From Candidatus Hermodarchaeota archaeon (GTDB taxonomy: Archaea > Asgardarchaeota > Hermodarchaeia > Hermodarchaeales > Hermodarchaeaceae): 64,000 bases of DNA. The notes under the pieces are model-generated. The model saw only the letters and a program-made list of their open reading frames with translations, was not told the DNA's origin and did not search any database. Shown here piece by piece: positions 4,416 through 62,900 of this stretch; the first letter of the stretch is position 1, and the number at the start of each line of letters is the position of its first letter. Made by a program: the position numbers and the translations under genes. The stretch covers positions 33,698 through 97,697 of the forward strand of contig JAEOUH010000069.1 in assembly GCA_016839365.1 (NCBI GenBank). Direction: 5' to 3'.

Positions 4416-5039
4416 ATGACCACCCACAATCAGCATTCCAAAGAAGAATCAACAGCTCCTACGGTCTTTCCTGTCTACGTCTTTGAGAGAACTAGCAAAT
4501 CAATCTTCAACTATTGTCTCAACAAAGCCACAGGGTCATCTCCGCGTGAAGCCCTGGGCGTCGTTCTGGGCTTTCGTCGACAATGGCAGGGAGAGAAGTA
4601 TATCCGTATCACCGATTGGGCCACCGGACACGTAGAAGCCAGTATTGCCCATGCCCGGTTCACTCCAGAAGGTATCCTCGAATATCGGCTTACCCTGCAC
4701 GATCGGTATGGCAATAATCCCCATTCTCCTCGCGTCGTCGGCCTCTGGCACTCCCATCCCTTTGGTGGCGATCCGCAGTTCTCCTCAACGGATTTACGTA
4801 CATTCTTCAACACGCCTTTCTGTGCTGAGGGCAACGTCTTCTTTTTGATTGATCCCCTCAGCCGGATCTTCAAAGTGTATATGCTTCGACCACGGCCCGA
4901 ACAGCCCGGCTTACAGCTAGAAAGGGTAGAATGGTGTACCTATCGTCCATCAGTCCCCGCTGGGGAACCAATGCTTCAGGATAACTCGCTAATCCATGAG
5001 GAGGAAATGCGTGATGACGAAGAAGCCCACACCGATTGA
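4416..5039 (+). CDS. JAB/MPN (JAMM) metallopeptidase, deubiquitinase-like
   Basis: PREALGVVLG (Glu) and VVGLWHSHPFGGDPQFSSTD (HxH…SxxD JAMM motif); overlaps the E1-like ORF. Confidence 0.85.
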   Translation: MTTHNQHSKEESTAPTVFPVYVFERTSKSIFNYCLNKATGSSPREALGVVLGFRRQWQGEKYIRITDWATGHVEASIAHARFTPEGILEYRLTLHDRYGNNPHSPRVVGLWHSHPFGGDPQFSSTDLRTFFNTPFCAEGNVFFLIDPLSRIFKVYMLRPRPEQPGLQLERVEWCTYRPSVPAGEPMLQDNSLIHEEEMRDDEEAHTD

Positions 5040-5877
5040 TTTAGAGTATTTTGAGAAGGATCAGCATGATCGAACACGACGCTGGTTGGGGGCTACCAAT
5101 CTTGAGGCCGTTCGTCAGTCAACGGTACTGATGGTGGGCGCAGGGGCAGTCGGGAATGAGGTCTGTAAGAATCTCGGCTTGTTAGGGGTTGGGAAAATCG
5201 TTTTGGTGGATCCCGATAAAGTGGCCGCCTCCAATTTGAACCGCTGTGTTTTCTTTCGTCCAGGAGACCACGATATTAAGTTCAAAGTCGATGCAGTGGC
5301 TGAGCGGCTCCCTGAACTCGCAACCGATACAGTGGTTGAACCACATGCCATACCGATACAGGTTGCACCGGACGAAGTGTGGGATGTTGACTTAGTGTTG
5401 GTCGGTGTTGACAACCATTATGCCCGCTACCTGCTGAATGCTAAAAATCTCAGCATCGAGCCACCCTTGCCAGTGATAAATGGGGCTATGGGAAAGGACT
5501 TCGTGTCAGTTGAAGTCCTCGCGCCACCAAAGACAGCGTGCTTGGTGTGTTCGTGGAGTAAAGACTTCGTCGATCATGTCATCACCAACGAAGTACGCAC
5601 ACGATGTGATCCTTTCTTTGTTGACACTATGCCCCGATTTCCCATGATTAGTTTTGTTACCTCCGTTGTGGGCGCAGTGATGGCGTGGGAAGCCACAAAG
5701 ATGCTTGCTGGATTACAGCAGTGGCGTCTAACGGGGCAATGGCAGGAGGGGCTCAAACCAGCACTTGGCCGGTTCATCCAATACGACTTACACAAGCATA
5801 AATCCATGACAGGACCAATTATGGCAAATCCACGGTGTACAGAAATTTTCTGTCGCGATAAGCGGAAACATCTCTAA
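4996..5877 (+). CDS. ThiF/MoeB/E1-like adenylating enzyme
   Basis: VLMVGAGAVGNEVCKNLGLLGVGKIVLVDPDKVAASNLNRCVFF; CLVC pair; TRCDPFFVDTMPRFPMISFVTSVVGAVMAWEATKML. An internal ATG at 5011 is an alternative start. Confidence 0.9.
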   Translation: MRRKCVMTKKPTPIDLEYFEKDQHDRTRRWLGATNLEAVRQSTVLMVGAGAVGNEVCKNLGLLGVGKIVLVDPDKVAASNLNRCVFFRPGDHDIKFKVDAVAERLPELATDTVVEPHAIPIQVAPDEVWDVDLVLVGVDNHYARYLLNAKNLSIEPPLPVINGAMGKDFVSVEVLAPPKTACLVCSWSKDFVDHVITNEVRTRCDPFFVDTMPRFPMISFVTSVVGAVMAWEATKMLAGLQQWRLTGQWQEGLKPALGRFIQYDLHKHKSMTGPIMANPRCTEIFCRDKRKHL

Positions 5878-5881
5878 CCCG

Positions 5882-7483
5882 TTAGATTAAACCAATGGTC
5901 TTCTGCCAGACCGTTGAAGTCGGTTTCTGATCAGCCCACAAGCGTAGGTTCAGAGTTACTTTGGGGGCTCCATTTGGCATAGGGAGGTTCATCCAAATAT
6001 TCACAGGGGAATCTAATCGAGGTGCGAAGGGTTCAATAGCCACTACCTGGTCCATAAGGCCGTCTGAAACGGTTGCTGTCATCACCATTTGGTCTAACGG
6101 ATGGGCACTGCTTGGTTTTGGAATCAATGAGACCTTCAAGGGCAACGTACTCCCACGTGGGACAGCATCAGGGGCGTTAACCTCTAATTCTGCGGGGGCT
6201 TCTCTCAACCGGGCGGGAACCGATTCGGGGACACCCACCACTCGTTTTACTTTCCACCCGGTCTCAATCTTGGGCTCAGAACGCTCTCCCTTTTTTCCAT
6301 CAATGGCAACAGTATCAGAGTACCAACTGACTTTGAATTCTTGGCGGACGCGAGTATCCATCCAGTTTCCGATGATAAGGGGAATATGACGGTTTGTCAC
6401 TCCTAACAATCCCATGGCCCCATGCCAGGTCGGATCAACAGGGATCCATTGACCCCGAATCCAAATTTCACTCCAAGCATGACGCTCCCAGGACTGCCCA
6501 TTATAAGCATAACCCGCTTCCAATCGGGCTGGTATTTTGTTCGCGCGACACAACGCCGCAAATAAAGCGGCATATTCAGTGCAATCACCAACCTGCTTTT
6601 CGATAGCATAAGCTGCTCCTCTTTCATACTCTTGACGAACATACCGCATCTTCTTTGTAACTGCCCTCATCGCTGCTTGTGCAAATTGTATCGGTGTTGA
6701 ATGATCTTTAGCAATATCTCGGGCAAGATCTTTGATGAGGTGGTGGTGTGATTCTATGAAATTTTCTGGTTGGGTGAACTTAACGATATTGGATGGAAAG
6801 GCTGAGTTGCGAGTTTCTGGCGGAATATTATACCGTAGTGCGCGATTCCGAATGAGAGCTGTGTACCCACAGGTAAAGGCTTCTCCAACAGCAAGACTAG
6901 CTTGATGAAATCGTATCCATTGATTTCCGATTGTATCATTCTGTTGTTGTCCATCCTTCGGAGAGAACTGGATATCAAGTACCGTTTGCCGAGGAGGCAG
7001 CGAAGGCGGAGCAGCTATTATAACTCGAACATTGCTGATTCGAGCACGTGTAATGTTCTTCACAGTCGCTGAATAATTGACCCTGTGCACTACAATTGGT
7101 GGATGTCCTCCTTCAAAGCGAAAGCATCCCATGACATAATGATCGTCGGGAGGTCCTCGATAGGGATACTTATCGATTGCGGCTTTGATGCGGGTTTCCT
7201 GCAATGCAACAACGATTGTATAGAATCCAGACAGCAGATTTGCCGTCAGTGGCACACTAAATTCACCTGTATTAGTCTTACCAAAATGAAACGGGACCTT
7301 ACTCACCATTCGCCCGAAGGGATCAATGATGTAGACGATCCCATTGTCAACCTTTACATTCGATTTTGCTTGACCCTTTCGTTTCAACTGAATAGAAATC
7401 CGTTGACCGGCTTTAACACTCGGAACACCATCTTGCCTCGTAGGGGCGATAATTTTCAAAGACACGGGAAGATTACTCGTCAT
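5882..7483 (-). CDS. Transglutaminase-like protein with flanking Ig/beta-rich domains, probably cytosolic
   Basis: Triad VGDCTEYAALFAALCR / WERHAWSEIWI / WIPVDPTWHG; no clear signal peptide or TM segment. Confidence 0.85.
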   Translation of the reverse strand: MTSNLPVSLKIIAPTRQDGVPSVKAGQRISIQLKRKGQAKSNVKVDNGIVYIIDPFGRMVSKVPFHFGKTNTGEFSVPLTANLLSGFYTIVVALQETRIKAAIDKYPYRGPPDDHYVMGCFRFEGGHPPIVVHRVNYSATVKNITRARISNVRVIIAAPPSLPPRQTVLDIQFSPKDGQQQNDTIGNQWIRFHQASLAVGEAFTCGYTALIRNRALRYNIPPETRNSAFPSNIVKFTQPENFIESHHHLIKDLARDIAKDHSTPIQFAQAAMRAVTKKMRYVRQEYERGAAYAIEKQVGDCTEYAALFAALCRANKIPARLEAGYAYNGQSWERHAWSEIWIRGQWIPVDPTWHGAMGLLGVTNRHIPLIIGNWMDTRVRQEFKVSWYSDTVAIDGKKGERSEPKIETGWKVKRVVGVPESVPARLREAPAELEVNAPDAVPRGSTLPLKVSLIPKPSSAHPLDQMVMTATVSDGLMDQVVAIEPFAPRLDSPVNIWMNLPMPNGAPKVTLNLRLWADQKPTSTVWQKTIGLI

Positions 7484-7868
7484 TATCTCGACCTACTTGG
7501 TCGGCTTCAGAGCGGGATTCGATTCCTTCTTCTTCTGGAAGAATAACTACTTTTCCACCCAGTGGTTGAGGTGAGCGTCGGGGGACATCGCCCAATATTC
7601 TCACAGATGTTCGTATCTCCGTAGGTTGGCTTCCTAAATCCAATCGGGGACCCAAAAACCGAGTAAAGTGTGGAGAGTGGGCTTCACCGCCACGAACGAT
7701 TGCTCCGGGACAGGTGCCTTGCCCTGATTCTAAGAAGAGGGCACGACACGAAGGACAAATATAGCTACCACAGACTGTACAAATCCACCATTGGCTCCGT
7801 GCATTTTCAAGTGAAACTTGAGTGGCACAAGCCGCACACCGCATTTGGGATGCACCATGTATACTCAT
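7473..7868 (-). CDS. RING/treble-clef-like zinc protein with a SIM-like C-terminal tail
   Basis: CAAC-x15-CTVC-x4-CPSC-x11-CP cysteine pattern; tail with TSVRILGD and KVVILPEEE; overlaps the adjacent transglutaminase ORF. Confidence 0.7.
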   Translation of the reverse strand: MSIHGASQMRCAACATQVSLENARSQWWICTVCGSYICPSCRALFLESGQGTCPGAIVRGGEAHSPHFTRFLGPRLDLGSQPTEIRTSVRILGDVPRRSPQPLGGKVVILPEEEGIESRSEADQVGRDNDE

Positions 7869-8092
7869 GATGGTCTCTCCTTAAGCTCACGTCGTTTCTT
7901 TTTACCATGAATTCTAATGGAATAATAAGGCGAAAAGTTGGGAGGTCGTTCTTCTTCAAAAGGGATGTCTCTCTCTCGGAGAATCTGAATCCGGGTTTCC
8001 CTCTCAGATTCATTCGTTGATTTTTCAGGTTCTTCCTCATACTCGTCGGGGCTTTCTTTCTCCTCTGAAGGTGGATCCGACATAATTGACAC
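7865..8092 (-). CDS. Small charged protein, acidic N-terminus and basic C-terminus
   Basis: 75 aa in-operon ORF; 4-nt overlap with the downstream gene; TRIQILRERD motif. Confidence 0.55.
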   Translation of the reverse strand: MSIMSDPPSEEKESPDEYEEEPEKSTNESERETRIQILRERDIPFEEERPPNFSPYYSIRIHGKKKRRELKERPS

Positions 8093-8097
8093 CTCGT

Positions 8098-8850
8098 TTA
8101 TCTCTCATCATCAAGAATCCGAACCGATGTACGTCTACTTGGTTTATCCAAAACGCGGGGCGCCCTTCGAACAGATTCCGCGCTTGATGATGAGGACTCA
8201 AGTATGCGTACACGTCCCTGCCGTGAAGCCGCAGCTGGCCCATCCTTGTGCTGGGCTTCCCAGAGCTGATCAAGGGTTTCAACGATTCTGTCTGCATCTT
8301 GCTCATACCATGCCATAGCCGCCATATTTAGACCATGATCGGATTGAAACTGAGATGGTGGTTCTACTCGGTCTGGTTTTAACAATACAAAAAAGGGGAG
8401 ATCTTCAAGGATACGATCTAATTCTCCACGAACCGAGTAGCAGGCATGTCCAGTCCCGCTCGCCGCCAGTCTGGGGTGATACAGGGGCGTTTCTGCTACA
8501 GGTCGAATGGCGCCTATGTTCTGAGGGTACTCTCGGGGCAAATCAAAGATGAATCGATGCTCATAACGTATGGCGCTTGTATCCTCAAGGTTTCTGGGTT
8601 TACGAACGAAGCCGGGGAGATTACGCATAGTAAAGCGAATCCGTTTAAAAGCTCCATCGCGATATCGGGCGATGGTGGAAACGGTGAAATCGCGATTGCT
8701 CCAAGCTGTGTCTTCGCGGTGCGGAGGATCTGGATCCCACCCTCGTCGTCCAAAGAGATTGTTCATAGTGTCAAAAAATGTCTGAATCTGGGTTTCCACT
8801 CTGGCGTTAAACAGCTCAGTAGAGAATACTGGTCGGGTCACGATTATCAC
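8098..8850 (-). CDS. E2 (UBC-fold)-like ubiquitin-conjugating protein with a C-terminal SIM-like tail
   Basis: FIFDLPREYPQNIGAIRPVAETPLYHPRLAASGTGHACYSV resembles the E2 core (YP…P…HPx…G.xCx) with candidate catalytic Cys137. Confidence 0.7.
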   Translation of the reverse strand: MIIVTRPVFSTELFNARVETQIQTFFDTMNNLFGRRGWDPDPPHREDTAWSNRDFTVSTIARYRDGAFKRIRFTMRNLPGFVRKPRNLEDTSAIRYEHRFIFDLPREYPQNIGAIRPVAETPLYHPRLAASGTGHACYSVRGELDRILEDLPFFVLLKPDRVEPPSQFQSDHGLNMAAMAWYEQDADRIVETLDQLWEAQHKDGPAAASRQGRVRILESSSSSAESVRRAPRVLDKPSRRTSVRILDDER

Positions 8851-8894: not shown

Positions 8895-9215
8895 TTATTG
8901 TCCGACTTCAGGGACTACATCGAGGAGGAAGAATTCATCATCGGTGATTTTTGGTTCTAGCTCCCCGAAGGTTATACCTGGACTTAGCCGGGTGGGTTCA
9001 GGGGCTTTACGGATGAGCACAAATTCTGCACGCTGGTCCCCGATTTTCGCTTTAGCCCAATCGTCAATACTGACGCCCTCATCACGGGCCTGGGTGACAA
9101 GAGTGCGGATGACTTCATCGACACGGGTATCTTCATCAATGCCGATTCGGAATTCCTTTTGACGGGGCTCAACATCGACGATGATTGAGCGCCAAAATCC
9201 TTCATCTTTACTCAA
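8895..9215 (-). CDS. Ubiquitin-like beta-grasp protein (YukD/Ubl-like)
   Basis: KEFRIGIDEDTRVDEVIRTL… and LSPGITFGELEPKITDDEFFLLDVVPEVGQ fit the Ubl beta-hairpin/helix/strand order; TTG start preceded by AGGTGA; adjacent to E2-like, E1-like and JAB genes. Confidence 0.65.
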   Translation of the reverse strand: MSKDEGFWRSIIVDVEPRQKEFRIGIDEDTRVDEVIRTLVTQARDEGVSIDDWAKAKIGDQRAEFVLIRKAPEPTRLSPGITFGELEPKITDDEFFLLDVVPEVGQ

Positions 9216-9457: not shown

Positions 9458-12352
9458 ATGACCACTAGGCACAAGCCATCCTTATCAACTTCACCAATCG
9501 TGTTTCGTAGTATCCGTCTAGTGAACTTTGTCATTCACCGTGATACCACAATCCAACTCGATCAATCCCCTGTCATTCTTATTACAGGCTCCAATGGAAG
9601 CGGAAAAACCTTGATTCTCGACGCCCTGTTGCTCGCAATTGGCGTTGAATCTCGAAGAGCCCAACGTCAACGCAATTCGGCTTTCATCGGTCGATTCGAG
9701 AAATATGCTGAAGTCATTCTAGAACTTAACAACTACCAACTCAATGGGCGACGAGTCTTAAGAAGCCCCGATCCTACCATGTCTGCGCTTCTTGATAAGG
9801 ACGTTGTGTCGATCCGGCTACGAGTCGATGAAACAAACCGAATATCCTATTGGTTGAATGAAAAACGATCAGTGAATGGCCATCAGATTGCTCGTAAAGA
9901 TATTCGGAAACTCTTCCAAGCTGCTGGACTCTTTGGAGATTCTCCCTTAGCTGTTACTGAGGCTGAGACTTTAGACCACTTTGCCTCCCAATCTCCACGA
10001 CGAAAGTTCGAGACTCTCCTGAACGAAACTGGGCTCCGTAATTGGATGGAAAAACTCGAGGAAGCCCGTCTCCTCGTATTACAGGCAAGAGCCAATGTCA
10101 AGCCCCTCGAATACCGGATCCGCCATGAAGAACAGCGCCTCCAGGTTCTGAAGGCAGCCTATGAAGCTTTTCAACAAAAACAGCAGCTCCAACAGAGACA
10201 GAAGGATCTCGACGTTGAAGCGGCCTGGGCTGAAGTGGCTTATCGTGAGGAGCTTGCTAGCCAACTCCAATCACAAGTTACCAGTCTGGAAACCCAACTC
10301 TCCGACCAAAATGAGAAATTGGACAAGTTAGACCAAAGGAAAACCAGCTTGAAAGAGAAGTGCGAAGCGATTGAAGCAAAACGGGAAAAGCTCCTAACAA
10401 CCATGGACTCGCTACACGATGAGCGGTTGCAAGCACAAGGCCATCGGCGAGGGCTAGAGAATGAACTCAAAGGCATGCTAAATCGAACAGAACGATATAC
10501 CAAGCGTCGGAAGCCCGCAACAGGCAAAATTGACGCCATTCAGAAGGAGTTAGCAACGATTATCCAGGATCGAGATGGCATCGATGATCAACTCGCTCAG
10601 GTCCGACAAGATATTGCCTCAACGGAAGAGTACCTCTTTACCAAACCCCAACGGTATCCACATTTTGAAGAGACAATACTTCGGGGCTGCCTCCGATACC
10701 GGTCTGAACTTGATAAACTCGCACTCTCTGATGCAGTGATTGGGCCCCTTTTTGCGCTCATTCGTATGAAACCGGAGTATGCACAGTACGAAACCGCGGT
10801 CAAACTGGCCTTGGGACGCTACTCCTATGCATTCATTGCTCTGAATCGAGAGGTCTTCGTTGAGGCTAAAAACTTGTATGATCATCTCTGGCCACATGAA
10901 AAGCCAGATCTGGTGGTCGCCCGGACAAATCCCACGACCGCGATAACGCGAGATCGCCCAACGGTTTCTTTACCCGTGATTGGTTGGGCAGCTGATCTCA
11001 TTGAAGGGGATATATATGCCATTAGTTTCCTAAGCCGTGTCATAAACACAGCTATCGCGGAGGAAGGAGCCGATCCCAACACGCTAGTCGATGCCTCTCA
11101 ACAACTCAATTGCAACATCATTACTAGTGAAGGAACAAGTCATTATCTCCGAATCGGCGCCTTTGCCCGACCACCCCGACCCGTTACGGTAAGTTTGGAT
11201 GTCTCTCTCAACGATTTGGGACTAGCCCAGGATGGCGCTGATACACGCATTCAACTCCGTGAACTTCGTGAACAAGAAGCTAAACTGATGCGAGACCGAA
11301 TGCGCATCAATTCTGAAATAAGTCAACTTCGGGCAACCCTCCAAGACCTTCAGCAAGTGCACATATCTCATCTTTCTGATGGGGAAAGAACAGCCCTGGT
11401 CACTAGTTCTGAACATCGAGTCGCTGAATTACAACAACTGATTCTTGAACTGGAAACTGAATGCGACAGGCTTAGCCAAGATTATCAGGAATATAACTTA
11501 GAATTATCACCGATCCATTCCCGACAGCAAAAACTATCCGAACAACTCCAAAACCTTGACCTTCGACGATCACGCCGTCAGGTTGAAATCAACCACCTCG
11601 TTGCAGAGCTCAAGCAACGCGAAGATGAATATGAGCATCTCATTAAACAAACCAAACATTTCCGTAAGGCTGCCACAGCACTGGGAGAACGCCCTCAGGC
11701 TGTTCGAAACCCTACTGCGATTCGTGATGAACAAATCCAAATCCAGGCGATGATTGATACTATCACCGCCACAGCAGACGATCGGCAAGCCTTTGAAGAC
11801 CAGGAACAAGTCGTCTCCCAACTCCAAGACTACCTCAAACAACGTCAGCTCCACTTAGAAAATCTGATGACGGACGTTGATCGAAGACTTCTCGAGTGGA
11901 GACGGCAACTCCAAGAGACGGTTGAAATCCTCAACCACCGTATGAACCAATTACTCAGCCACTTCCTCAAGCAAGTCAAACTGCTTATTCGATTCCCCGA
12001 TGAACCCAGTCGTGCGGAGCTCCACCTTCAACTTGCCATTAACCGCAAAGGCGACTGGCGGACCTATCAAGAAATGTCTGGGGGCGAACGGGTCCTAGCC
12101 ACCCAGACTTTCATTTTAGCCCTACACACTCTCGCCAAGAGTCCCCTCCATGTGATTGATGAATTTACCCAACGCCTCGATGAAGCAAGCCGTGCAGCTA
12201 TTCTCAGTGTTGTTCAACGCGCCCTCGATTTAACCCAAAAAGACTCACTAATTCATCCACAGTTTCTTCTAATGGCTCCCTCCACGGTCGGACTCGAGAT
12301 CCCAGAGACTATGCACCACGTCGTGCTGATCAAAGGACAGGTGAAAGTCTAA
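9458..12352 (+). CDS. SMC5/6-type SMC ATPase (964 aa)
   Basis: IRLVNFVIHRDTTIQLDQSPVILITGSNGSGKTLILDALLLAIG (Walker A); coiled coils; hinge-like VIGPLFALIRMKPEYAQYETAVKLALGRYSYAFIALN; SGGERVLATQTFILALHTLAKSPLHVIDEFTQRLDE; HPQFLLMAPSTV. Confidence 0.85.
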   Translation: MTTRHKPSLSTSPIVFRSIRLVNFVIHRDTTIQLDQSPVILITGSNGSGKTLILDALLLAIGVESRRAQRQRNSAFIGRFEKYAEVILELNNYQLNGRRVLRSPDPTMSALLDKDVVSIRLRVDETNRISYWLNEKRSVNGHQIARKDIRKLFQAAGLFGDSPLAVTEAETLDHFASQSPRRKFETLLNETGLRNWMEKLEEARLLVLQARANVKPLEYRIRHEEQRLQVLKAAYEAFQQKQQLQQRQKDLDVEAAWAEVAYREELASQLQSQVTSLETQLSDQNEKLDKLDQRKTSLKEKCEAIEAKREKLLTTMDSLHDERLQAQGHRRGLENELKGMLNRTERYTKRRKPATGKIDAIQKELATIIQDRDGIDDQLAQVRQDIASTEEYLFTKPQRYPHFEETILRGCLRYRSELDKLALSDAVIGPLFALIRMKPEYAQYETAVKLALGRYSYAFIALNREVFVEAKNLYDHLWPHEKPDLVVARTNPTTAITRDRPTVSLPVIGWAADLIEGDIYAISFLSRVINTAIAEEGADPNTLVDASQQLNCNIITSEGTSHYLRIGAFARPPRPVTVSLDVSLNDLGLAQDGADTRIQLRELREQEAKLMRDRMRINSEISQLRATLQDLQQVHISHLSDGERTALVTSSEHRVAELQQLILELETECDRLSQDYQEYNLELSPIHSRQQKLSEQLQNLDLRRSRRQVEINHLVAELKQREDEYEHLIKQTKHFRKAATALGERPQAVRNPTAIRDEQIQIQAMIDTITATADDRQAFEDQEQVVSQLQDYLKQRQLHLENLMTDVDRRLLEWRRQLQETVEILNHRMNQLLSHFLKQVKLLIRFPDEPSRAELHLQLAINRKGDWRTYQEMSGGERVLATQTFILALHTLAKSPLHVIDEFTQRLDEASRAAILSVVQRALDLTQKDSLIHPQFLLMAPSTVGLEIPETMHHVVLIKGQVKV

Positions 12353-13143
12353 TGATAACTAATGATACTTCTACATTTCTCCGTGCCTTTCCGCGCCGCA
12401 AGGCCTGGTATGACACTTTCCAATACAACTACAAGCGAACACGACTATCATCTTTTGGAACCAAAGGGATAGTAATTACGCTATGGAATCTGACCAAAAA
12501 GTATGAGGTTGCCCTAAAACAGCACGATACGTTCCCGATTAAGGAAGCGGAGATTGACCGTGAAGAAGTTGCCGATGCATACCGCGTCCTTGATACCCCC
12601 TGGGAACGAACTCTCGATGGGCGTTTCTACTATAATCTCGCTTCAATGCAACATCACCGGGATTCTCAATTGGCTGCTCCTGAAATCGCTCCCGAGGAAT
12701 GGATTTCCCAATTTGCCAATGAGGTCAAACGACGCGCGACTCCGGTACTCTTTTTAATTAATCAAGAGCGGACCATCCCACCTTTCCAATTGCCTCCTGC
12801 TGATTCGCCGGTCGCAATGGACGATGCCCCTACCCAAGATGATAAACAGGCTATGCGCAAACACCGTATCTCTTATGAAGAGATCTCCATAGACGCTCTC
12901 GGCGCTAGAAGGGCGGATATCCTGAAACGGCTACAAGGCAAACGATACAACTATGCAGCCCTATCCGAAATCCTAACCAACTGGGAACTCGATTTACTCA
13001 GCCAGATGATTCGGGATAACATCTGTCCTGCAACGTTCGAAAAAACGGCTATCATTTTTCGACACCCTCCACCTAAAACAAATCCTGCTTTCACTGCTGT
13101 TGCCATTACCGCACAAAACCATGAGGAGGTTCCTCGAAAGTGA
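12352..13143 (+). CDS. Hypothetical protein in the kleisin position of the SMC operon
   Basis: TAATG stop/start overlap with the SMC gene and GTGA overlap with the KITE-like gene; assignment by position only. Confidence 0.45.
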   Translation: MITNDTSTFLRAFPRRKAWYDTFQYNYKRTRLSSFGTKGIVITLWNLTKKYEVALKQHDTFPIKEAEIDREEVADAYRVLDTPWERTLDGRFYYNLASMQHHRDSQLAAPEIAPEEWISQFANEVKRRATPVLFLINQERTIPPFQLPPADSPVAMDDAPTQDDKQAMRKHRISYEEISIDALGARRADILKRLQGKRYNYAALSEILTNWELDLLSQMIRDNICPATFEKTAIIFRHPPPKTNPAFTAVAITAQNHEEVPRK

Positions 13144-13787
13144 CCTCAGATCCAATACCTACTGACACCATCTCTTCCACAAGCGAGGATTCAGAAGAAG
13201 AGGTGTTAGAGCAACGTCATCTCATTGGTCAGCTCTTTGCCGCCCTCACAGCAAGGTTTCGGAATGAGGAAGGCCAACTCAGCATCGGGGTCAAACGGCA
13301 AGATCTTTTAGAAGCCCTTCATATCAATAAGACTGGCTTAGTCCGCCTCCTCGATTTACTCCGCCAGCAAATATCTCCCCTGGGGCTAGAATTGGTTGAA
13401 TATCGAATGGGACGGGACACGCTCTATTGTGTTCGAACCATTTACGGAGTTCCTGGCGAGCTCACTGATCCTGAATACGCCGTATTAGGAGTCATCATTT
13501 CCACTGTAGAACAGGTGAGTAAACTCCATCGTCCACGCCGGGTGGCCACAAAAGACATCGAAACAATCCTTGTAGCCCGTGGGCGCCTCTCCCGCTACCA
13601 ACTCGATCGTATTTTACGACGACTAACCGAGCTAGGCTATATTACGCGAACCGCACGACGAATTACTTACGGTCCACGACTCGAATTGGAATTTGATGCT
13701 GAACGCCGTGAAGCCATCGCCAGCGCAGCAACCCTGTATCTCGCAGGGGCTACAGCTGATTCGGAGGAAGACCTGAATGAAACTTGA
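13140..13787 (+). CDS. Double winged-helix KITE/ScpB/Nse3(MAGE)-like protein
   Basis: Two predicted WH units: RQDLLEALHINKTGLVRLLDLLRQQISPLGLELVEYRMGRDTLYCVRT and EYAVLGVIISTVEQ…ATKDIETILVARGRLSRYQLDRILRRLTELGYITRTARRITYGP; operon position after SMC. Confidence 0.6.
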   Translation: MTSDPIPTDTISSTSEDSEEEVLEQRHLIGQLFAALTARFRNEEGQLSIGVKRQDLLEALHINKTGLVRLLDLLRQQISPLGLELVEYRMGRDTLYCVRTIYGVPGELTDPEYAVLGVIISTVEQVSKLHRPRRVATKDIETILVARGRLSRYQLDRILRRLTELGYITRTARRITYGPRLELEFDAERREAIASAATLYLAGATADSEEDLNET

Positions 13788-14238
13788 TCTCTCCACCGTT
13801 GGCATCAGTTGTGTAGCCTGTGGAACCCGAATCACACTTGAGGAGGCAATCCAGAAGGAATGGCACCAATGTTTACGGTGTCAGTTCTTCATTGATCCCC
13901 ATTGTCTTGGAATTGTCCAAAACACCATGGGTGGGGTCTGCCCCTCATTTAGCCAAGGAGTGACCCGTCATTCCTTGCAAGCTGCTGATATTCCTACAGA
14001 ACAGATCCTCATATTCGTCAAAGATCAATATCAGAAAGGTCACGGAGGTGCTCTCATCGACTCCTTATTTTATACCAGACCTTCAGCTTTAAAGAAACCA
14101 CAACACCCAAGTCAAATGGAATCGAACTCTGAAGAACCTCTCACCCGAGAAGAAATCTGGCAACGCTTTGGACTCGTTTTAGTGCAGCGGTCCCAAGGTA
14201 AATGGAAAACTTGGGAAAAAGTTGGCAGTACTAGCTGA
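13777..14238 (+). CDS. Zn-binding RING/treble-clef-like protein, paralog of the 7473-7868 product
   Basis: CVAC-x16-CLRC-x4-DPHC-x11-CP matches the spacing of the Ubl-cluster Zn protein; overlaps the upstream KITE-like ORF. Confidence 0.65.
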   Translation: MKLDLSTVGISCVACGTRITLEEAIQKEWHQCLRCQFFIDPHCLGIVQNTMGGVCPSFSQGVTRHSLQAADIPTEQILIFVKDQYQKGHGGALIDSLFYTRPSALKKPQHPSQMESNSEEPLTREEIWQRFGLVLVQRSQGKWKTWEKVGSTS

Positions 14239-28483: not shown

Positions 28484-30493
28484 GTGGCCACTTCACGTAC
28501 ATTCGAACTCAACCCAGATTATACCCCAAGTGGTGATCAACCCAAAGCTATCCAGAAGCTCATCAAAGGCTACAAAGAGGGTAAACGCCAACAGACACTG
28601 TTAGGCGTGACAGGATCTGGCAAAACCTTTACAGTGGCCTATATTGTAGAAGCCCTCCAAAAACCGACGCTGGTCATTTCACCTAACAAGACCCTTGCTG
28701 CACAACTCACAAGCATGTTCCGGGACTACTTCCCTGAAAACGCGGTAGAATATTACACCTCTTATTACGATTACTTTCAACCCGAAGCGTATATGCCCAC
28801 ATCAGATACCTACATCGAGAAAGATGCCTCAATTAACGAAGAAGTAGAACGGATGCGATTATCAGCGGTTGCCTCTCTTGCTGTCCGAAGAGATGTACTC
28901 ATCGTTGCCACCGTCTCCTGCATCTACGGCATTGGAGCCCCTGGCTCCTATCGAAACCTAGTCGTAGAGCTTGCACAGGGTCAAGAGATTCCACGTGATG
29001 AGCTTTTCGCCCGGTTAGTCCATATAAACTATACCCGGAATGACTTTGACTTCCACCGAGGAACCTTCCGCGTTCGTGGTGACGTAATCGAGGTCTTCCC
29101 GGCCTATGCCAATCATCCAATTCGCCTTGAAACATTTGGTGATACCATTGAACGCATCGCCGACATTGCCCCAATCAAAGGAACAGTGCTCTACGAGCGC
29201 GAAAAAATCAAAATCTTCCCGGCAAAACAATTCACCACCGACCAGCGAATCCTTCCTGAAATCTTGGAACAAATCGAAGATGAACTCGAGGAACGGCTGA
29301 AGGAACTCGAGACTCAAGAGAAAATCCTGGAAGCTGACCGATTGCGACGACGTGTGAAATATGACATCGAAATGATGCGCTCTGTTGGATGGACCGGTGG
29401 CATCGAGAACTATTCACGCTACTTTGATGGACGGAAACAAGGACAGAAACCCTACTGTCTATTAGATCATTACCCTGAGGACTTCCTCCTTGTAATTGAT
29501 GAGTCCCACATCACTGTGCCACAAATTGGAGGGATGTATTATGGTGACTTATCCCGAAAACGAAACCTCGTTGATTACGGCTTTCGACTACCCTCCGCCT
29601 TTGACAACCGTCCCCTAACCTTTGAAGAATTTGAACCCTATATGCGTACCGTTCTCTACACGTCTGCCACCCCCTCAAGTTATGAACGAAAGCATTCAGA
29701 CAAGGTGGTAGAACAAATCATCCGCCCCACCGGGCTAGTGGACCCTAAAATCATCGTGCGACCTACCGAAGGACAAGTCGAAGACCTGCTAGGAGAGATC
29801 CGTATTAGAGCCAAAAAAGATGAACGCGCCTTGGTGACTACTCTAACAAAACGCATGGCTGAAGACTTAGCTGATTACATGGTCCATGCTGGAGTCAAAG
29901 CCGAATATCTTCACTCCGAGGTCGGCACCCTTGAACGTATCGAGGTACTACGCAACCTACGTCAAGGTAAACACGAGGTAGTCGTTGGTATTAATTTACT
30001 GCGGGAAGGTCTGGACTTACCAGAAGTATCACTCGTAGCGATTCTCGATGCGGATAAGGAAGGCTTTCTCCGCTCCGATACCAGCCTAATTCAAATCATG
30101 GGACGGGCAAGCCGAAATGTCAACGGAACAGTAATTCTGTATGCGGATCGGATGACTGATTCTATGACTCGGGCGATCACTGAAAACAATCGACGCCGAG
30201 CCATGCAACTCAAGTACAACAAGGAACACGGCATCACTCCCACAACAATTGTGAAATCAATTACTGATATTGCTGAAGGAGTGGAACGTGTAACCGCGAG
30301 TTCACGGACCCAGGTAAACGTACCTAAAAACTGGCGTACTGCCAATGAAAGCGATCTCGCCCTGTTGGTTGTTGAGCTCCGTGAAGAGATGCTTCAGGCG
30401 GCAGAAGAACTGGAATTCGAACGGGCGGCAAACCTGCGTGACCTTATCAATGAAATTGAGGCGTACCTGGGGCTGCAAACGAAGAGTTCCTAG
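28484..30493 (+). CDS. uvrB: Excinuclease ABC subunit B
   Basis: TLLGVTGSGKTFTVA, YYDYFQPEAYMP, ESHITVPQIGGMYYGD, GINLLREGLDLPEVSLVAILDADKEGFLRS. Confidence 0.98.
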   Translation: MATSRTFELNPDYTPSGDQPKAIQKLIKGYKEGKRQQTLLGVTGSGKTFTVAYIVEALQKPTLVISPNKTLAAQLTSMFRDYFPENAVEYYTSYYDYFQPEAYMPTSDTYIEKDASINEEVERMRLSAVASLAVRRDVLIVATVSCIYGIGAPGSYRNLVVELAQGQEIPRDELFARLVHINYTRNDFDFHRGTFRVRGDVIEVFPAYANHPIRLETFGDTIERIADIAPIKGTVLYEREKIKIFPAKQFTTDQRILPEILEQIEDELEERLKELETQEKILEADRLRRRVKYDIEMMRSVGWTGGIENYSRYFDGRKQGQKPYCLLDHYPEDFLLVIDESHITVPQIGGMYYGDLSRKRNLVDYGFRLPSAFDNRPLTFEEFEPYMRTVLYTSATPSSYERKHSDKVVEQIIRPTGLVDPKIIVRPTEGQVEDLLGEIRIRAKKDERALVTTLTKRMAEDLADYMVHAGVKAEYLHSEVGTLERIEVLRNLRQGKHEVVVGINLLREGLDLPEVSLVAILDADKEGFLRSDTSLIQIMGRASRNVNGTVILYADRMTDSMTRAITENNRRRAMQLKYNKEHGITPTTIVKSITDIAEGVERVTASSRTQVNVPKNWRTANESDLALLVVELREEMLQAAEELEFERAANLRDLINEIEAYLGLQTKSS

Positions 30494-30636
30494 ACTCAAT
30501 TACTTTCATTGGGGTGTCCCCTCCGCTTATATGTTTAAACGAACTTCCGAGTACAAGAAAGCTGATAAAACAGGTCAACGAACCTGCAACGCTGGACGCA
30601 ACCTACGGTTGGGCTTGGTGTAGAACCGTAACTCTT

Positions 30637-33615
30637 ATGTCAGCTGGCGCAATCGATGCCGCTGACAAGATAGGTGACAGATGGGTGAGCGACGACAAGT
30701 ACATTACCGTCAAAGGCGCCCGGGTGCACAATCTGAAAGATATCACTGTGCAAATCCCCCGGGATAAATACGTAGTCATCACTGGACTCTCCGGTTCCGG
30801 TAAATCCTCGCTAGCGTTCGATACGCTCTTCGCTGAAGGACAGCGCCGATACGTTGAGTCCCTCTCAGCTTATGCGCGACAATTCTTAGGGCGCATGGAC
30901 AAACCCGACGTTGACTCAATCGAAGGCTTAAGTCCGGCAATCTCCATCGATCAACGATCCGCAGGAGGCAATCCCAGGTCTACTGTGGGTACTACCACTG
31001 AAGTGTATGATTATATGCGATTGCTCTGGGCCCGCATTGGCATTCCGCATTGCCACCAGTGTGGAAGAAGGATTGCCCCACAATCAGCACAACAGATTGT
31101 ACGACAAATCATGGAATTCGAGGAAGGTACTCAAGTCCGGATCCTCTCCCCGGTTGTAAAAGGTAGGAAAGGCACCTATAAGGCACTCTTCAAGAAGTTA
31201 CAGAGTGAGGGCTTCATCCGGGTTCGTGTCGATGGGAAAGATTACAGATTGGATAAAGAGGAAATCGATCTCGACCGATATGTTATTCACAATATCGAAA
31301 TAATCGTTGACCGGTTAGTACTTAAGCCCGCCGTCGAACAACGTCTGAACCAGTCCGTGGAAACTGCATTAGAGTTTGGAGAAGGATTAGTAATTGTTGA
31401 GGTTAAAGGTGATCAGGAGTATCTGTTTAGCGAGTCTGCTGGCTGTCCGGTATGTGGAATTAGTTTCCCAGATTTAGCACCCCGTCTCTTCAGTTTCAAC
31501 TCACCTTATGGAGCATGTCCGGAATGCAAAGGATTAGGGTACACACTGGAGGTCGATCCTGATCTTGTCATCCCCGACGAGACTAAGTCGATTATAGAAG
31601 GAGCGATCGCTGCCTACCACACTCCTTTGAATGGCTGGCGATTACGGAGTCTGACCAGCATAGCCAAACATTACGGATTCAGTCTTGATACTCCCTTCAA
31701 AGACCTTGCCCCCGAGATTCAGCACGTACTTCTTTATGGATCAGGCGAGGAGGAAATCCGATTCGAACACAGTGGTATCACTGAGTCAGGGCGAAAATGG
31801 GAATGGATCAGTGAGAAACCCACTATGGGTGTGATTCCAGGACTTAAACACCGCTATAAGCAAACGAGTTCAGAGGTCGTTCGCGAATCAATTACTCGGT
31901 TCATGGCTCAGCTCCCTTGTCCAGTGTGTCATGGTCGTCGACTACGTCCGGAAGCGCTTGCCGTCACTATCCAGGACAAGAGTATCGATTATGTGACGAA
32001 CCTCTCAATTGATGAAACCTTGGCCTTCTTTGATCAGCTTGAGCTTACGAAGAAAGAAGCTACTATCGCTCGGCAAACCCTTCGTGAAATCAAACAACGA
32101 CTGGAGTTTCTCTCCTCGGTGGGGCTAGATTATCTGACCCTGAATCGCCAATCAGCTTCGTTGGCGGGGGGTGAAGCCCAACGTGTCCGGCTTGCAACGC
32201 AGATTGGGTCTCGCCTAGTCGGAGTGACTTACATCCTTGACGAACCTAGTATCGGTCTTCACATGCGTGACAACAAACGCCTCCTCTCCATGCTTCTCCA
32301 ACTCCGTGACCTAGGTAACACTGTGCTTGTTGTCGAGCACGACGAGGGTTTCATCCGTGCATCAGACTGGATTATTGATCTTGGACCTGGTGCCGGTATC
32401 CATGGAGGACAAGTGGTCGCCGAAGGACCAGTCCCAGAGATTGAAGCTAATCATAAGTCCATCACCGGACAGTATCTCCGAGGGGATAAGGTCATTTCCG
32501 TGCCTCCTACTCGAAGAATCGGTAACGGAGCCAGCATCCAAATCAAACGGGCCCACCATCGCAACCTGAAAAATATCGATGTGACATTTCCACTGGGAAC
32601 CTTCATCTGTATTACCGGTGTTTCTGGGTCAGGGAAAAGCACACTCATCACAGATACCTTGTATCCTGGTATTATCTGGCAGTTTCGACGCCGTCGTCGA
32701 CGCCAATCCGATGCAATCTTAGCTAGCCGGCTCCTCAAACCTGGACCTTTCGATGCCCTCAAGGGCGTCCGCTTCATCGATAAAGTTATCCTGGTTGATC
32801 AGTCACCCATCGGGCGAACACCACGTTCCAATCCTGCGACCTATACTCAGGTATTTGGACCAATCCGTGAACTTTTCTCGAAGACCGAAGAGGCACGAAA
32901 ACGTGGATATCAACCCGGACGCTTCAGCTTCAACGTAAAAGGTGGTCGATGTGAAACCTGTGGTGGCGCAGGGGTTCTAAGAATCGAGATGCAGTTCCTC
33001 CCAGATGTTTTTGTGCAATGCGATGAGTGCCATGGTAAACGCTTCAACAAAGAAACCCTTCAAGTTCGTTACAAGGGCAAGACCATCCACGAAGTACTTC
33101 GAATGACGGTCGACGAAGCTGCAGAGTTCTACAAGAATATTCCCAAGATTGCTGGTATCCTTGAAACCCTTCAACGGGTTGGTCTTGGGTATATGGAACT
33201 TGGTCAACCTTCGCCGACCCTGAGCGGTGGTGAAGCTCAACGTATCAAACTCAGCCGTGAACTCGGTAAACGCAGTACCACTCAAACACTCTATATCCTT
33301 GATGAACCGACCACCGGTCTGCATCTTGCGGATGTCCAGAAACTACTTGATGTCTTGAACCATCTTGTTGACGCAGGGAACACCGTCATTGTCATTGAGC
33401 ACCAACCCGATGTGATTAAGGGCGCAGATTATATCATCGATTTGGGACCTGAAGGCGGTGACAAAGGTGGATATATTGTAGCCCAGGGAACTCCGGAACA
33501 AGTGGCACAGAATCGAAAATCCTATACAGGGGCTGTGCTTCGTGAAGCACTGGCAATGAAGATGGAACGTGATTCCGAAGATTCCACAGACCGCGTGAAA
33601 GTCCTCTCTCGGTAA
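30637..33615 (+). CDS. uvrA: Excinuclease ABC subunit A
   Basis: [96 protein letters not shown] track start 30514. Confidence 0.98.
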
Positions 33616-33659
33616 GAGCGAACGGTTCTTCAACCCGTTTAGTGTTCTAGTAGGTGAAT

Positions 33660-35492
33660 ACGATTATGAATCTTGAAGAGGAACTCAAGGACTTACCTGA
33701 CGCACCTGGTGTTTACATTCTATATGATGCCAATGATACCGTCATCTATGTTGGGAAAGCTCAATCTCTCCAAAAACGGGTGCCTGCCCATTTTCGTGGC
33801 AGCGGAAGTGGTAGCGTCTTCTCACCTATTGGGCAAGAAGTGGCTGAACTGGAATATGTGGTCACAGCAAATGAATCAGAAGCGTTGGTCCTTGAAGATA
33901 ATTTGATCAAACGCTACAGGCCACGATATAACATCCGCTTGAAAGATGACAAAAGTTTCCCTTATGTGCGAATTACACTCCAAGAAGACTTCCCAAGGGT
34001 AGAAAAAACACGTACACTTGTCAATGATGGTAGCCGATACATTGGTCCCTATTCCAACGTTAAAGCCTTGGATGGCTTCCTGAAATCAATTAATCGGATT
34101 GTTCCTATTGCCACATGTAAGCCAGCCATTGTTCCTGGAAAACGTAAACGCGCCTGTCTCAAATATGACATCGGCTACTGTCCTGCCCCCTGTATCAACA
34201 AGATTAGTAAAGAAGATTATGCTGAACTTGTCCAGGAGTACACACTGATGCTTACAGGGCAACAAGACGAGCTTGAAGCCCACCTCAAACGTCTTATGAA
34301 AAAAAGCTCCGATTCCCAGGAATTTGAACGGGCTGCCCGATACCGGGATCGGCTCCGCTCAGTCCAACGTGGCAGACAAGCACAACGTGCCACCTACTGG
34401 AATCAATTACCAGGCCACCGTGACGTATTGGGACTAGCTCGTCAAGGACCCGATGCCCTGGTCCAACTCCTCGTGGTCCGTGAAGGACGCGTAATTGGCC
34501 AACAACCGTTCCCCCTCAGTGCACCCTCCGAGCTCCCTGACGAAACGGTCATCGAAGCCTTCCTCAAGCAGTATTATCTACGCGCCACTGAAATCCCAGA
34601 GGAAGTCATACTATCTGTTCCCATAGCTGAGACGCAGTTTCTGGAAGAATGGCTCACTCAACGACGTGGGAATAATCACCCTGTAACAATCGTGCACCCC
34701 ACCCAGGAGCCCCTCATAAGTCTGACACAAATGGCAAATGAAAACGCTCAATTCCATCTCCACCAACTCGTCGAACGCATGGCTCGGGACGAAGGCCGAA
34801 AACAACAAGCCTACAACGATCTCATGGACGCCCTCCTTCTCACCGAAGAACCCGCCCATATCGAGGGGTTTGACATCTCGACTCTCCAAGGCACAGAATC
34901 AGTTGGTGTCTGTGTGGTCTTCAAAGATAGTCTTCCTTTCAAGAAGGGTTATCGGCGGTTCAAGATACGTGAAGTGGAAGGTCAGGATGATTTCGCGATG
35001 ATTAATGAAGTCGTCCACCGGCGTTATCACCGTCTAGTAACCGAGAAACTTCCTCTACCTAATCTCATCGTTATTGATGGTGGACGTGGACAAGTCAGTA
35101 TGGCACTCAAAGCCCTGGAATCTGTCGGCATTTTTAATATTCCAGTCATTGGTATTGCAAAAGCAGAAAAGCCCGATCCTGATCTTATTTACGTCCGTAA
35201 TCAGAAAACACCGGTCGATTTACCCGTAGATAGTCAAGGATTACGGTTAATCCAGCGAGTTCGTGATGAAGCCCATCGGTTTGCTATAGCTTATCATCGC
35301 AAAATCCGACAAATCAAGGGCATGAAACTTACATTAACCGATATTCCGGGCATTGGCGTTAAACGTGCTACTCTTCTCCTTCAGCACTTCGGCAACCTAG
35401 AGAACCTCTCGAAGGCTTCAGTGGATGAAATCGCTGCTGTCCCGGGAATAACTAAGCAATTGGCGAGCGAAATCATAGCGCATTTCTCATAA
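33660..35492 (+). CDS. uvrC: Excinuclease ABC subunit C
   Basis: DAPGVYILYDANDTVIYVGKAQSLQKRV (GIY-YIG), KRYRPRYNIRLKDDKSFPYV, IVIDGGRGQVSMA, C-terminal HhH; likely start ATGAATCTTGAAGAGG near 33666. Confidence 0.95.
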   Translation, partial: TIMNLEEELKDLPDAPGVYILYDANDTVIYVGKAQSLQKRVPAHFRGSGSGSVFSPIGQEVAELEYVVTANESEALVLEDNLIKRYRPRYNIRLKDDKSFPYVRITLQEDFPRVEKTRTLVNDGSRYIGPYSNVKALDGFLKSINRIVPIATCKPAIVPGKRKRACLKYDIGYCPAPCINKISKEDYAELVQEYTLMLTGQQDELEAHLKRLMKKSSDSQEFERAARYRDRLRSVQRGRQAQRATYWNQLPGHRDVLGLARQGPDALVQLLVVREGRVIGQQPFPLSAPSELPDETVIEAFLKQYYLRATEIPEEVILSVPIAETQFLEEWLTQRRGNNHPVTIVHPTQEPLISLTQMANENAQFHLHQLVERMARDEGRKQQAYNDLMDALLLTEEPAHIEGFDISTLQGTESVGVCVVFKDSLPFKKGYRRFKIREVEGQDDFAMINEVVHRRYHRLVTEKLPLPNLIVIDGGRGQVSMALKALESVGIFNIPVIGIAKAEKPDPDLIYVRNQKTPVDLPVDSQGLRLIQRVRDEAHRFAIAYHRKIRQIKGMKLTLTDIPGIGVKRATLLLQHFGNLENLSKASVDEIAAVPGITKQLASEIIAHFS

Positions 35493-59707: not shown

Positions 59708-59920
59708 TCCTTGCAAACTGCCAGAATTGCTTGTTACTTTGACAATAATTCTCAAAGAAGTAGTAATTTGTGCTACCTCAGGCATCTAGGTAAATGATTT
59801 TAACTACAGCCTCACTATTGGTGAATGAGGCGACAATACGGGAGGTCCTTGGATCCTTAGTAAAGCCAAGGCTTTCCGTGTTCACTCCTGAAGAAAATGG
59901 CTCCTCAGGAACGGGATATT

Positions 59921-62900
59921 ATGAAACGTTCTTTTACCAAATGGTGTGGAATTCCACTAATTGCTTTACTTACATTTACTTTGATATATCCTCTCTTGTA
60001 TTCTCCTTCGTTATTGCCGTCGAATATGGCGTTGGTTTCAGCGCCTAATGTACAAAGACCAACCTTTGGACCAGTTATTCCCCAGCCAGCTAGCCCTGAA
60101 TATTTGATTATAACACCAAACAGCGGCTGGGTCCAATCCTTTGCGGAATGGAAGACCCTGAAAGGGGTTCCCACTCAGGTGATCAATGTTAGCTGGATTC
60201 AAGCAAATTACCCACTGAGTTCAACAATTCGGGATAAAGCTGAACAAATATGGACTGCGATAAAGAGTGTATATGACGCAACAACTCCTGCTAGCCTTCA
60301 ATGGGTTCTACTCATTGGTGATAATGCGACCATTCCTTCACGGTATGTCTACTTACCTGATACAACAGAATGGACAGGTCAAGATCCTAACCGGAAACCA
60401 ACTGATTTCTACTATTCAGTTATGGGTGATACCGATTGGGATGACGATGGTGATGGCAGATGGGGGGAATGTGCCACCTTTAATGTGGGCGGCCCCTCGT
60501 CTGACGAAATTGGGGATTGGCAATCTGATCTTTATGTTGGTCGCATCCCCTTTAGTGACCAAGGAAATGTAACCAGCATACTCACTAAGGCATTAGATTA
60601 TGCCCGGAATCCAACCGGCTTTTCACCGACGGGCTGGGATTCCTTCCTCCTTGGCGGTGCCATAAGTAATTACGATGAAGAGGTCTGGGCGTGGCTCGAT
60701 CAAGATTACACCGATGAAGCAGAACTAAGCGACTACATCAACGCAAACCATATTCCTGGGTATTACGATGTCTACCGTTTCTATGAAGATCGGTTTAACT
60801 TCTGGAATTACACCTCACCGAATACATTTCAGAACTTAAACGATACTGCGGTTATCCAAGGAATCAATCTCTACTCACCCGCACTCATCAATTTAGCTGC
60901 GCATGGAAGCCCAACAGACATTCAGCGCAAATATGATCCCTGGGGATTCCCCTATGGAAACACCTGGTCTAGTGCAACAGCAGGATGGAATAATCCAGTA
61001 ACCGGAGTTGCCATCGGTGATCCTGACAATGACGGCTTCAATGAGCTAGTCTACACACATGGCATGGGTACAGGGCTTACTGCACAAAATGGTACAATTT
61101 GGCTACGAGATCCTAGTACGATGGTAGACACCCTAATCTGGGATCTATGGACTTTCCCGGTTGACGGTTTTCCAACCCATGCTACCTGCGTTGATATCGG
61201 GGATGTTTGGAATAATGGGACCATTGCAGTTGTAGTGGGCACTTGGTCCGGTTCAACTGTCATTTTCACGAGAATCGTTCCCATTGTGGGACTTCCCTAT
61301 TGGAGGCCAGTTGTAGTGAATGGTCCAGAAATTTCAGATCCAGTACTATGTATCGAGGTTGGAAATGCCGACAATGTCCTTGAACCACACGGTTATGGGG
61401 GAAGTGGCACTCCTTCTGTCAATATTGATATCGTTTGGGGTCATCAAAGTGGCATGACCTTTATCGCATCTTGTGTTGGTGCACCAGGACCAGTAGGGCA
61501 CGTCATACGGGTAGCCTTAGTGTGGAATCACGGTCAAGCAGTGTATTCGATTGACGTAGGCGATCCCGACGACGATACAAAGGGGGAAATCACCTGTGGA
61601 ACAGGGTTTACTAATGCTTCTGGTGATTTTGGAGACGTCTATCGATTATTCTATCTGCCTGCTGTTAATTGGTTCCGTACTACCATCGACTTAGGCCTTG
61701 GCGGGTTTGTGTATGGGTGTGATTCGGGTGATGCCGGTAACGACTTCTATAACAAAGTCGTTGTTGGTGTAAGCGATGGATCCATCTATATGTATGAAGC
61801 CGGTTGCATATCCCTTGGATATGGGGGATATCAAGGTGGTACGGATAGAGGAACGAGAAAAACAATCTCGAGCCCTGGTGGAAATGCAGGCATGGTTCGA
61901 TGTTTAAACATCGGATTCGTCGATGACAATGACCTCCTTACCACTTATCCAACACCTGTGGAACACTATTCGATCATTGCCGGGAATCAATACGGTGGTA
62001 TCTGGAAATACCATGCTAACAACGTTTCAGGCTTTATTGACGCCTACCCCATCGCAGTTCAGAACTTGGTATTTGGGGTGAATGTAACAGATCTTGACGT
62101 TGGCGAACTTAGTTACGTTACGGGAGAAACGACATTCAATCAAGAGGTTGCGGCTGGCAGTGAAGTTGGTATGATGCCACTGTCATTTGTCTATTGGTTT
62201 GAATGGCCTTGGAATCTGTGGGGCAATATGCTCAATACTACTCAAGTTAATGCAACAACCGCGAATATCCCTGCCCTCGTCTATGCTGACTCCTGTCACA
62301 CAGCCGGATATGAATATACCCAAGAATGTTTAGCTGAAGCCTTCATACGAAACATGGCCATTGGCTACATCGGTTCGATGCGCATCTGCTGGTATTATCG
62401 AGGGACCATGACTCAATCCTTCCTGTGGGGGCTAGGTCGGTACATGTCACAGGAATTCTGGGACCTCTTCTTCAGTGGCACAACTGCCTATCGACCAGGA
62501 GCAACACTCTATCAGAATAAAATCGATTATCAAAGTACCTTTGCTTCCATTGCCAGCTCATTCCCCACAACATGGGAAACCTATCACCGCAAGAACCTAC
62601 TCAGCTATGCCCTCTTCGGAGATCCAGAGATTGACGTGTTCACCAATAATCCACGAACCCTCACCATAAGTACTCCAGCCAACGCTAATTATCAAGGAAC
62701 CACAGTCCTTCAAGCCTTGGATGGCACCTTACCTGTAGCAGGGGCAACCATCTGCCTTTGGGACAAAGATGGCACCTACTACGAGGTCCAAACCACTAAT
62801 GCCAGCGGTCATGCTGTGTTTACAGTAACAGCAAGTGTTCCGAATAGTCTGAATGTCACTGCCACAGCGCACAACTATATTCCTCACCAGAGCACTATTG

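Follow-up and report, generated by a model that had tools for sequence, protein, structure and literature searches.

We found that short V/I-x-I-L/I cores recur at conserved positions in the low-complexity tails of three neighbouring proteins of an archaeal ubiquitin-like (Ubl) conjugation cluster, with two to three copies in an E2-like protein, two in a Zn protein and one in a 75-aa protein (p75). We consider it probable, at roughly 60%, that these segments resemble SUMO-interacting motifs (SIMs) in function and serve as short linear motifs that dock onto the Ubl of their own cluster. The window, that is the whole 64,000-nucleotide stretch of DNA analysed, comes from a Candidatus Hermodarchaeota archaeon (Asgard); its family is referred to as f1, a distant Asgard family as f11 and a third family as f10. 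The repeat is genuine and stronger than the preliminary description of this DNA had stated. Judging by sequence, the motifs behave like SIMs; we do not claim formal SIM membership for them, and we infer that the Ubl is their receptor.

The Ubl, the E2-like protein, p75, the Zn protein and a transglutaminase-fold protein are encoded in one run on the - strand, faced by the genes for a JAMM protein and a ThiF-type E1. The E2-like protein (8098..8850, -) ends in a 49-aa disordered tail, where two full copies, GRVRILESSSSS (motif 1; 8182..8217, -) and the C-terminal TSVRILDDER (motif 3; 8101..8130, -), enclose a weaker sixth copy, the degenerate PRVLDK (motif 2; 8143..8160, -). The p75 protein (7865..8092, -), which adjoins the E2 in all three families, contains IQILRERD (7967..7990, -) in a conserved motif-ERDIPFEEERPPNFSP block, and the tail of the Zn protein (7473..7868, -) carries TSVRILGD (motif 1; 7587..7610, -) and VVILPEEE (motif 2; 7527..7550, -). 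All five segments of the preliminary description exist in the - strand genes to which it assigned them; its coordinates were exact for TSVRILDDER, TSVRILGD, VVILPEEE and IQILRERD, whereas GRVRILESSSSS proved to be one codon longer than described.

Six complete orthologous clusters and nine f11 genomes have the motifs at corresponding positions, while the flanks have diverged. In the E2-like protein, motif 1 reads GRVxI[LI] in every tail-bearing f1 ortholog and GG[IV][KR]II in f11, and motif 2, P(R/Q)[VI]L in f1, is a full motif in f11 ([IV][RK]I[IM]). Motif 3 is [VI]RIL[DE] in f1 and GG[IVM]RII in f11, where this third copy forms the extreme C-terminus of the protein itself, KKGGVRII-COOH, after a basic stretch. 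The p75 motif follows RI-x-[IV]-[LI] in f1, as part of the conserved string RI-x-[IV]-[LI]-x-ERDIPFEEE, and [IV]KI[LI]xE[KR] in f11. Zn motif 1 is [VI]xIL throughout f1 and TVKILPKK in f11, and Zn motif 2 is GG[KR]V[VI][IF]L and IK[VI][LI][DE]S, respectively. In f10, we found only one E2 copy, of a weaker form, plus one p75 copy. Since orthologs within one family are not independent, these data amount to about two independent confirming lineages, drawn from MAG genomes that are incomplete. Lack of conservation was an outcome that the preliminary description had itself named as refuting its proposal; instead, the motifs are kept in two Asgard families far removed from each other, within tail sequence that elsewhere is nearly unconstrained. 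This conservation is the decisive point for the reality of the observation.

SIMs are defined by a four-residue core, typically with at least three V/L/I residues, to which acidic or phosphorylatable flanks contribute (PMC12751080). At least three of the four core residues are V, I or L in E2 motifs 1 and 3, in the p75 motif and in both Zn motifs, which follow V/I-x-I/V-L/I; E2 motif 2 is degenerate in f1, and departures from the pattern are MRII in one f11 copy and VIFL in one f1 Zn copy. The flanks are usually acidic or phosphorylatable in f1 (LESSSSS, LDDER, LPEEE) and mixed in f11 (IIPREE, IIGGD, LPKKS, C-terminal VRII). The earlier claim of a match to the SIM pattern therefore stands for the core, but its acidic/Ser flank is typical of f1 and not universal in f11.

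We show purifying selection on the protein sequence of the motif cores, which in this respect resemble folded cores and differ from the remainder of the tails. Among the f1 orthologs, which have diverged well at synonymous sites, synonymous changes accounted for a share of 0.73, 0.63 and 0.63 of the codon differences in the motifs of the E2, Zn and p75 proteins, respectively, against 0.25, 0.22 and 0.18 in the remaining tail sequence and 0.69, 0.57 and 0.88 in their conserved cores. Because the motif positions were picked by inspecting the window protein, this test is descriptive, although the effect is large.

One might argue that these are chance hydrophobic tetrapeptides that had been over-read in the tails. 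Such patterns are indeed common, as V/I-x-I/V-L/I/M occurs 2458 times, regardless of context, in the 1992 ORFs (about 1.8 Mb) scanned in the congener G002, and one match in a disordered region, SVRVRVLDAD of a membrane protein, is absent from other congeners and not conserved. We nevertheless regard chance as very improbable, since it is already contradicted by the positional conservation in two families, with its core-like selection, and by composition-preserving shuffles. Shuffled versions of the window E2 tail attained two motifs at p = 0.0008, and p was at most 0.014 for 16 of the 18 E2 tails, namely the 16 from f1 and f11; under the strict pattern, the two E2 tails from f10 contain none. 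All Zn tails gave p <= 0.022. Taken alone, the p75 copy was non-significant in most orthologs (p 0.0004-0.23); its position is nevertheless conserved. Moreover, only 23 of the 1992 G002 ORFs have the motif in a strictly hydrophobic-poor context, and the E2-like, Zn and p75 proteins are all among them. A further match, near the N-terminus of DP1 (the small subunit of DNA polymerase D), lies inside a conserved KDPTPEL block, reads RIKIR in one congener and is probably unrelated.

The only convincing extra motif that the G002 scan returned beyond the cluster is in the C-terminal low-complexity tail of UvrA, which reads DRVKVLSR in the window (33589..33612, +), matches E2 motif 1 and is taken here as a lead. 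Three congeners have SGRVKILSR, KGRVEILSQ and SGRVKILSR at this place; the motif is kept in all four genus members with a readable C-terminus and is absent in the sister genus, hence genus-restricted. UvrA is a possible client of the Ubl system. Its gene belongs to a complete bacterial-type uvrB-uvrA-uvrC set in this archaeal window (28484-35492, +), which also encodes a 1158-aa protein with a Peptidase_C25 domain (59897-63373, +).

Elsewhere in the genome, a canonical cluster (L218 4319-8097, contig C71) encodes a ubiquitin ending in TEGG, an E1, an E2, a RING protein and a UEV-type protein; the organism therefore has two Ubl conjugation systems. We looked for tail motifs in this canonical ubiquitin-E1-E2-RING cluster and none are present, from which we conclude that the motif travels with the second, divergent Ubl system.

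The proposed partner of the motifs is the 106-aa Ubl (8895..9215, -), for which AF2 predicts a beta-grasp fold nearest SUMO. With two models, Foldseek placed SUMO1 entries first among the Ubl modifiers in the PDB, with TMt of 0.68-0.78 at about 12% identity. Sequence searches gave no Pfam ubiquitin or SUMO match and no SUMO in a PDB profile search, and a reading of the beta2 sequence revealed no clear counterpart of SUMO K39. The stretch VEPRxKEFR, spanning the beta1-beta2 hairpin and the start of beta2, is among the best-conserved of the Ubl, which is compatible with a docking edge there and also with an E1 or E2 contact. A C-terminal diglycine is absent: each of the aligned orthologs has VG in place of GG at its end, in some cases followed by a short extension. 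In f1 this end is PEVG plus one to three variable residues, an extension that may be removed by the JAMM/JAB peptidase (4416..5039, +; Pfam Prok-JAB 1.3e-8), while distant relatives have QVG, mostly without extension. The E1-like enzyme is of the ThiF family (4996..5877, +; Pfam ThiF 1.5e-34). Ubl and E2 co-occur in 19 of 232 Asgard genomes, belonging to three families.

The E2-like protein is predicted to have a UBC fold and a catalytic-type Cys after an HP motif (HPR...GHACYS). Foldseek matched the E2 part to UBC9 or other UBE2 chains, and Pfam UQ_con gave a weak match in nine of the 18 members; C137 and HPR...C are invariant, and the HPN tripeptide is absent, all full-length members having HPR. 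Translation probably starts at a GTG at 8841 and not at 8850, because orthologues begin MTRPVFS (window 8838-8850, -). The Zn protein, with its CxxC...CxxC...CxxC...C arrangement of invariant cysteines, is a candidate E3 of treble-clef/RING-like type, showing weak, sub-threshold Pfam matches to RING/ADD/FYVE-type fingers.

The tails had been said to look disordered, and for the E2 tail this was borne out by prediction. We modelled single-chain Ubl-E2 sequences with AF2, using the natural in-frame readthroughs of L009 and L062 with stop codons read as Ser, and obtained well-folded beta-grasp Ubl and UBC-fold E2 domains followed by disordered tails (pLDDT about 24-34 in the two models); the Zn tail and the head of p75 are hydrophobic-poor. 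Neither model docks the tail onto the Ubl, which is weak evidence given the 26-28 alignment rows and the use of AF2 outside multimer mode. The same models show no packing of the E2 tail in cis, and this bears on the proposal that the motifs pack as a strand on their own E2 or Zn domain, or self-assemble as strands, and thereby regulate activity. V/I-x-I-L cores are strand-prone, and homotypic pairing is conceivable since three adjacent proteins share the motif. However, its presence on unrelated folds argues for a common partner in trans, and we find this proposal distinctly unlikely. RHIM-like self-assembly was discarded, as an I/V-Q-I/L-G core is not conserved.

We favour docking onto the Ubl because of the conservation in f1 and f11, the codon shares, the shuffle enrichment and the rarity of the motif in G002. 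Further arguments are the disordered E2 tail, the closeness of the Ubl model to SUMO1 and of the E2 part to UBC9 and UBE2s, the motif-free canonical cluster, the non-conservation of another disordered-region match and the published analogue in yeast Nse2. The case is weakened by the undocked AF2 models, the f11 flanks, the single weaker E2 copy of f10, and the low identity of the Ubl to SUMO1 with no clear K39 counterpart. If docking occurs, each core would add as a beta-strand to the beta2-alpha1 groove of the Ubl, as SIMs do on SUMO. The tandem copies of the E2 tail could hold a donor or backside Ubl and so concentrate it where transfer or chain growth takes place, and the Zn protein could hold the charged E2~Ubl in the manner of SIM-bearing SUMO ligases, with p75 as a putative adaptor. 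The substrates would probably be tied to the neighbouring SMC complex, as synteny suggests.

That complex comprises a second SMC of 964 aa (9458..12352, +; divergently transcribed in the window, upstream and on the same strand in f11) and kleisin-like (12352-13143, +) and kite-like (13140-13787, +) proteins. They are joined by another Zn protein (13777-14238, +), a homologue of the one in the Ubl operon (7473-7868, -). The last three were assigned by synteny and BLAST; the kleisin-like and kite-like names follow from position and size and are putative, and the kite-like protein has a weak MarR match. By its best profile match, the second SMC is a candidate SMC5/6-like protein, scoring 92.5 bits to Smc6, 77.7 to Pyrococcus-type Smc and about 53 to Smc3/Smc4 in the PDB; a single-sequence search ranked chromosome-partition Smc first. 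Archaeal SMCs related to SMC5/6 have been described before (PMC9389158). A canonical SMC of about 1195 aa is encoded elsewhere in the genome. The SMC and Ubl genes are linked in L054-L056, L058, L059 and L062, and in f11 (L055, L056) a single strand carries them in the order SMC-kleisin-kite-Zn2-JAMM-E1-Ubl-E2-p75, with a Zn protein and a transglutaminase-like gene about 6 kb further along in L055. Synteny in both f1 and f11 thus ties the Ubl system to the SMC set in two lineages that are far apart. In f1 and f10, the Ubl operon includes the transglutaminase-fold gene (5882..7483, -; Pfam Transglut_core 4e-24), whose product is possibly a cysteine peptidase working on Ubl conjugates alongside the JAMM enzyme. 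An anti-phage role was set aside, as the PADLOC matches are only partial similarities of E1, JAB and SMC; the window E1 matches the E1-E2 and BilD models in part only.

The linkage to the SMC genes would also suit a different shared receptor, namely the E1, the beta-domain of the transglutaminase-like protein, the second Zn protein or the complex of SMC, kleisin and kite. The motifs would then still dock as beta-strands, but would assemble the conjugation machinery on that scaffold instead of holding the Ubl. Conservation and repetition are what any common receptor would produce, and the f11 motifs lack consistent acidic flanks. On the other hand, the published precedent for repeated V-x-I-L in the tails of conjugation enzymes is SUMO binding (PMC12751080), and of all the components only the Ubl turns multivalent once it is built into chains. 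We therefore hold another receptor to be rather unlikely, and retain the Ubl as the preferred one.

That a modifier is recognised through short disordered SIMs is considered a hallmark of SUMO in eukaryotes. Our limited search of the open-access literature returned no description of SIM-like motifs in archaea, and the sequences analysed here suggest that SUMO-style tag grabbing by short linear motifs exists there too. A more far-reaching proposal, which we think less likely than not, is that distant Asgard families run a SUMO-like pathway beside canonical ubiquitin. Its Ubl would be read by SIM-like tails of an E2, of an adaptor and of a RING-like protein, and would serve an SMC5/6-like complex, making the pathway an archaeal and possibly ancestral counterpart of the eukaryotic SUMO-SIM-Smc5/6 axis. 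If these tails do bind their Ubl, the non-covalent reading of Ubls through linear motifs is older than eukaryotes or arose outside them; with a true SMC5/6-like link, small recombinant proteins would then allow a direct test of how the SUMO-Smc5/6 connection originated.

The closest published parallel is Nse2, the ligase of yeast Smc5/6, in which one SIM in a loop and another at the very C-terminus clamp the donor and backside SUMO on Ubc9, and the carboxylate of the C-terminus makes contact with an arginine of SUMO (PMC8636563). Like SIM1 and SIM2 of Nse2 and the SIMs of ZNF451 (PMC12751080), the motifs described here have three V/I/L residues in a core of four, lie in disordered tails and occur in multiple copies per protein. 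As in Nse2, moreover, they belong to conjugation-pathway proteins, the f11 E2 ends exactly with the core, and a candidate SMC5/6-like SMC adjoins. Unlike in Nse2 and ZNF451, their carriers are the E2-like enzyme itself and a Zn protein that is RING-like and not of SP-RING type; they are archaeal, their acidic flank is not universal, the partner Ubl is not demonstrably of the SUMO family, and we infer the binding.

Among prokaryotic systems, the Ubl operons of types 6a-6e contain Ubl, JAB, E1-like and E2-like genes (Iyer, Burroughs and Aravind 2006, PMC1779556). The window likewise has Ubl, E1-like, E2-like and JAB together, and one of those types includes a Zn-finger protein. The window differs by adding a second SMC complex and p75, whereas PMC1779556 makes no mention of SMC, and its portions drawn on here show no SIM-like tails. 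An archaeal ubiquitin-E1-E2-RING cascade is known in Caldiarchaeum (PMC5654768), with which the window system shares activation and transfer of a Ubl via E1 and E2. Compared with the canonical cluster of its own genome, where the ubiquitin ends in TEGG, the E2 matches UQ_con strongly and motif tails are missing, the window system is a divergent one.
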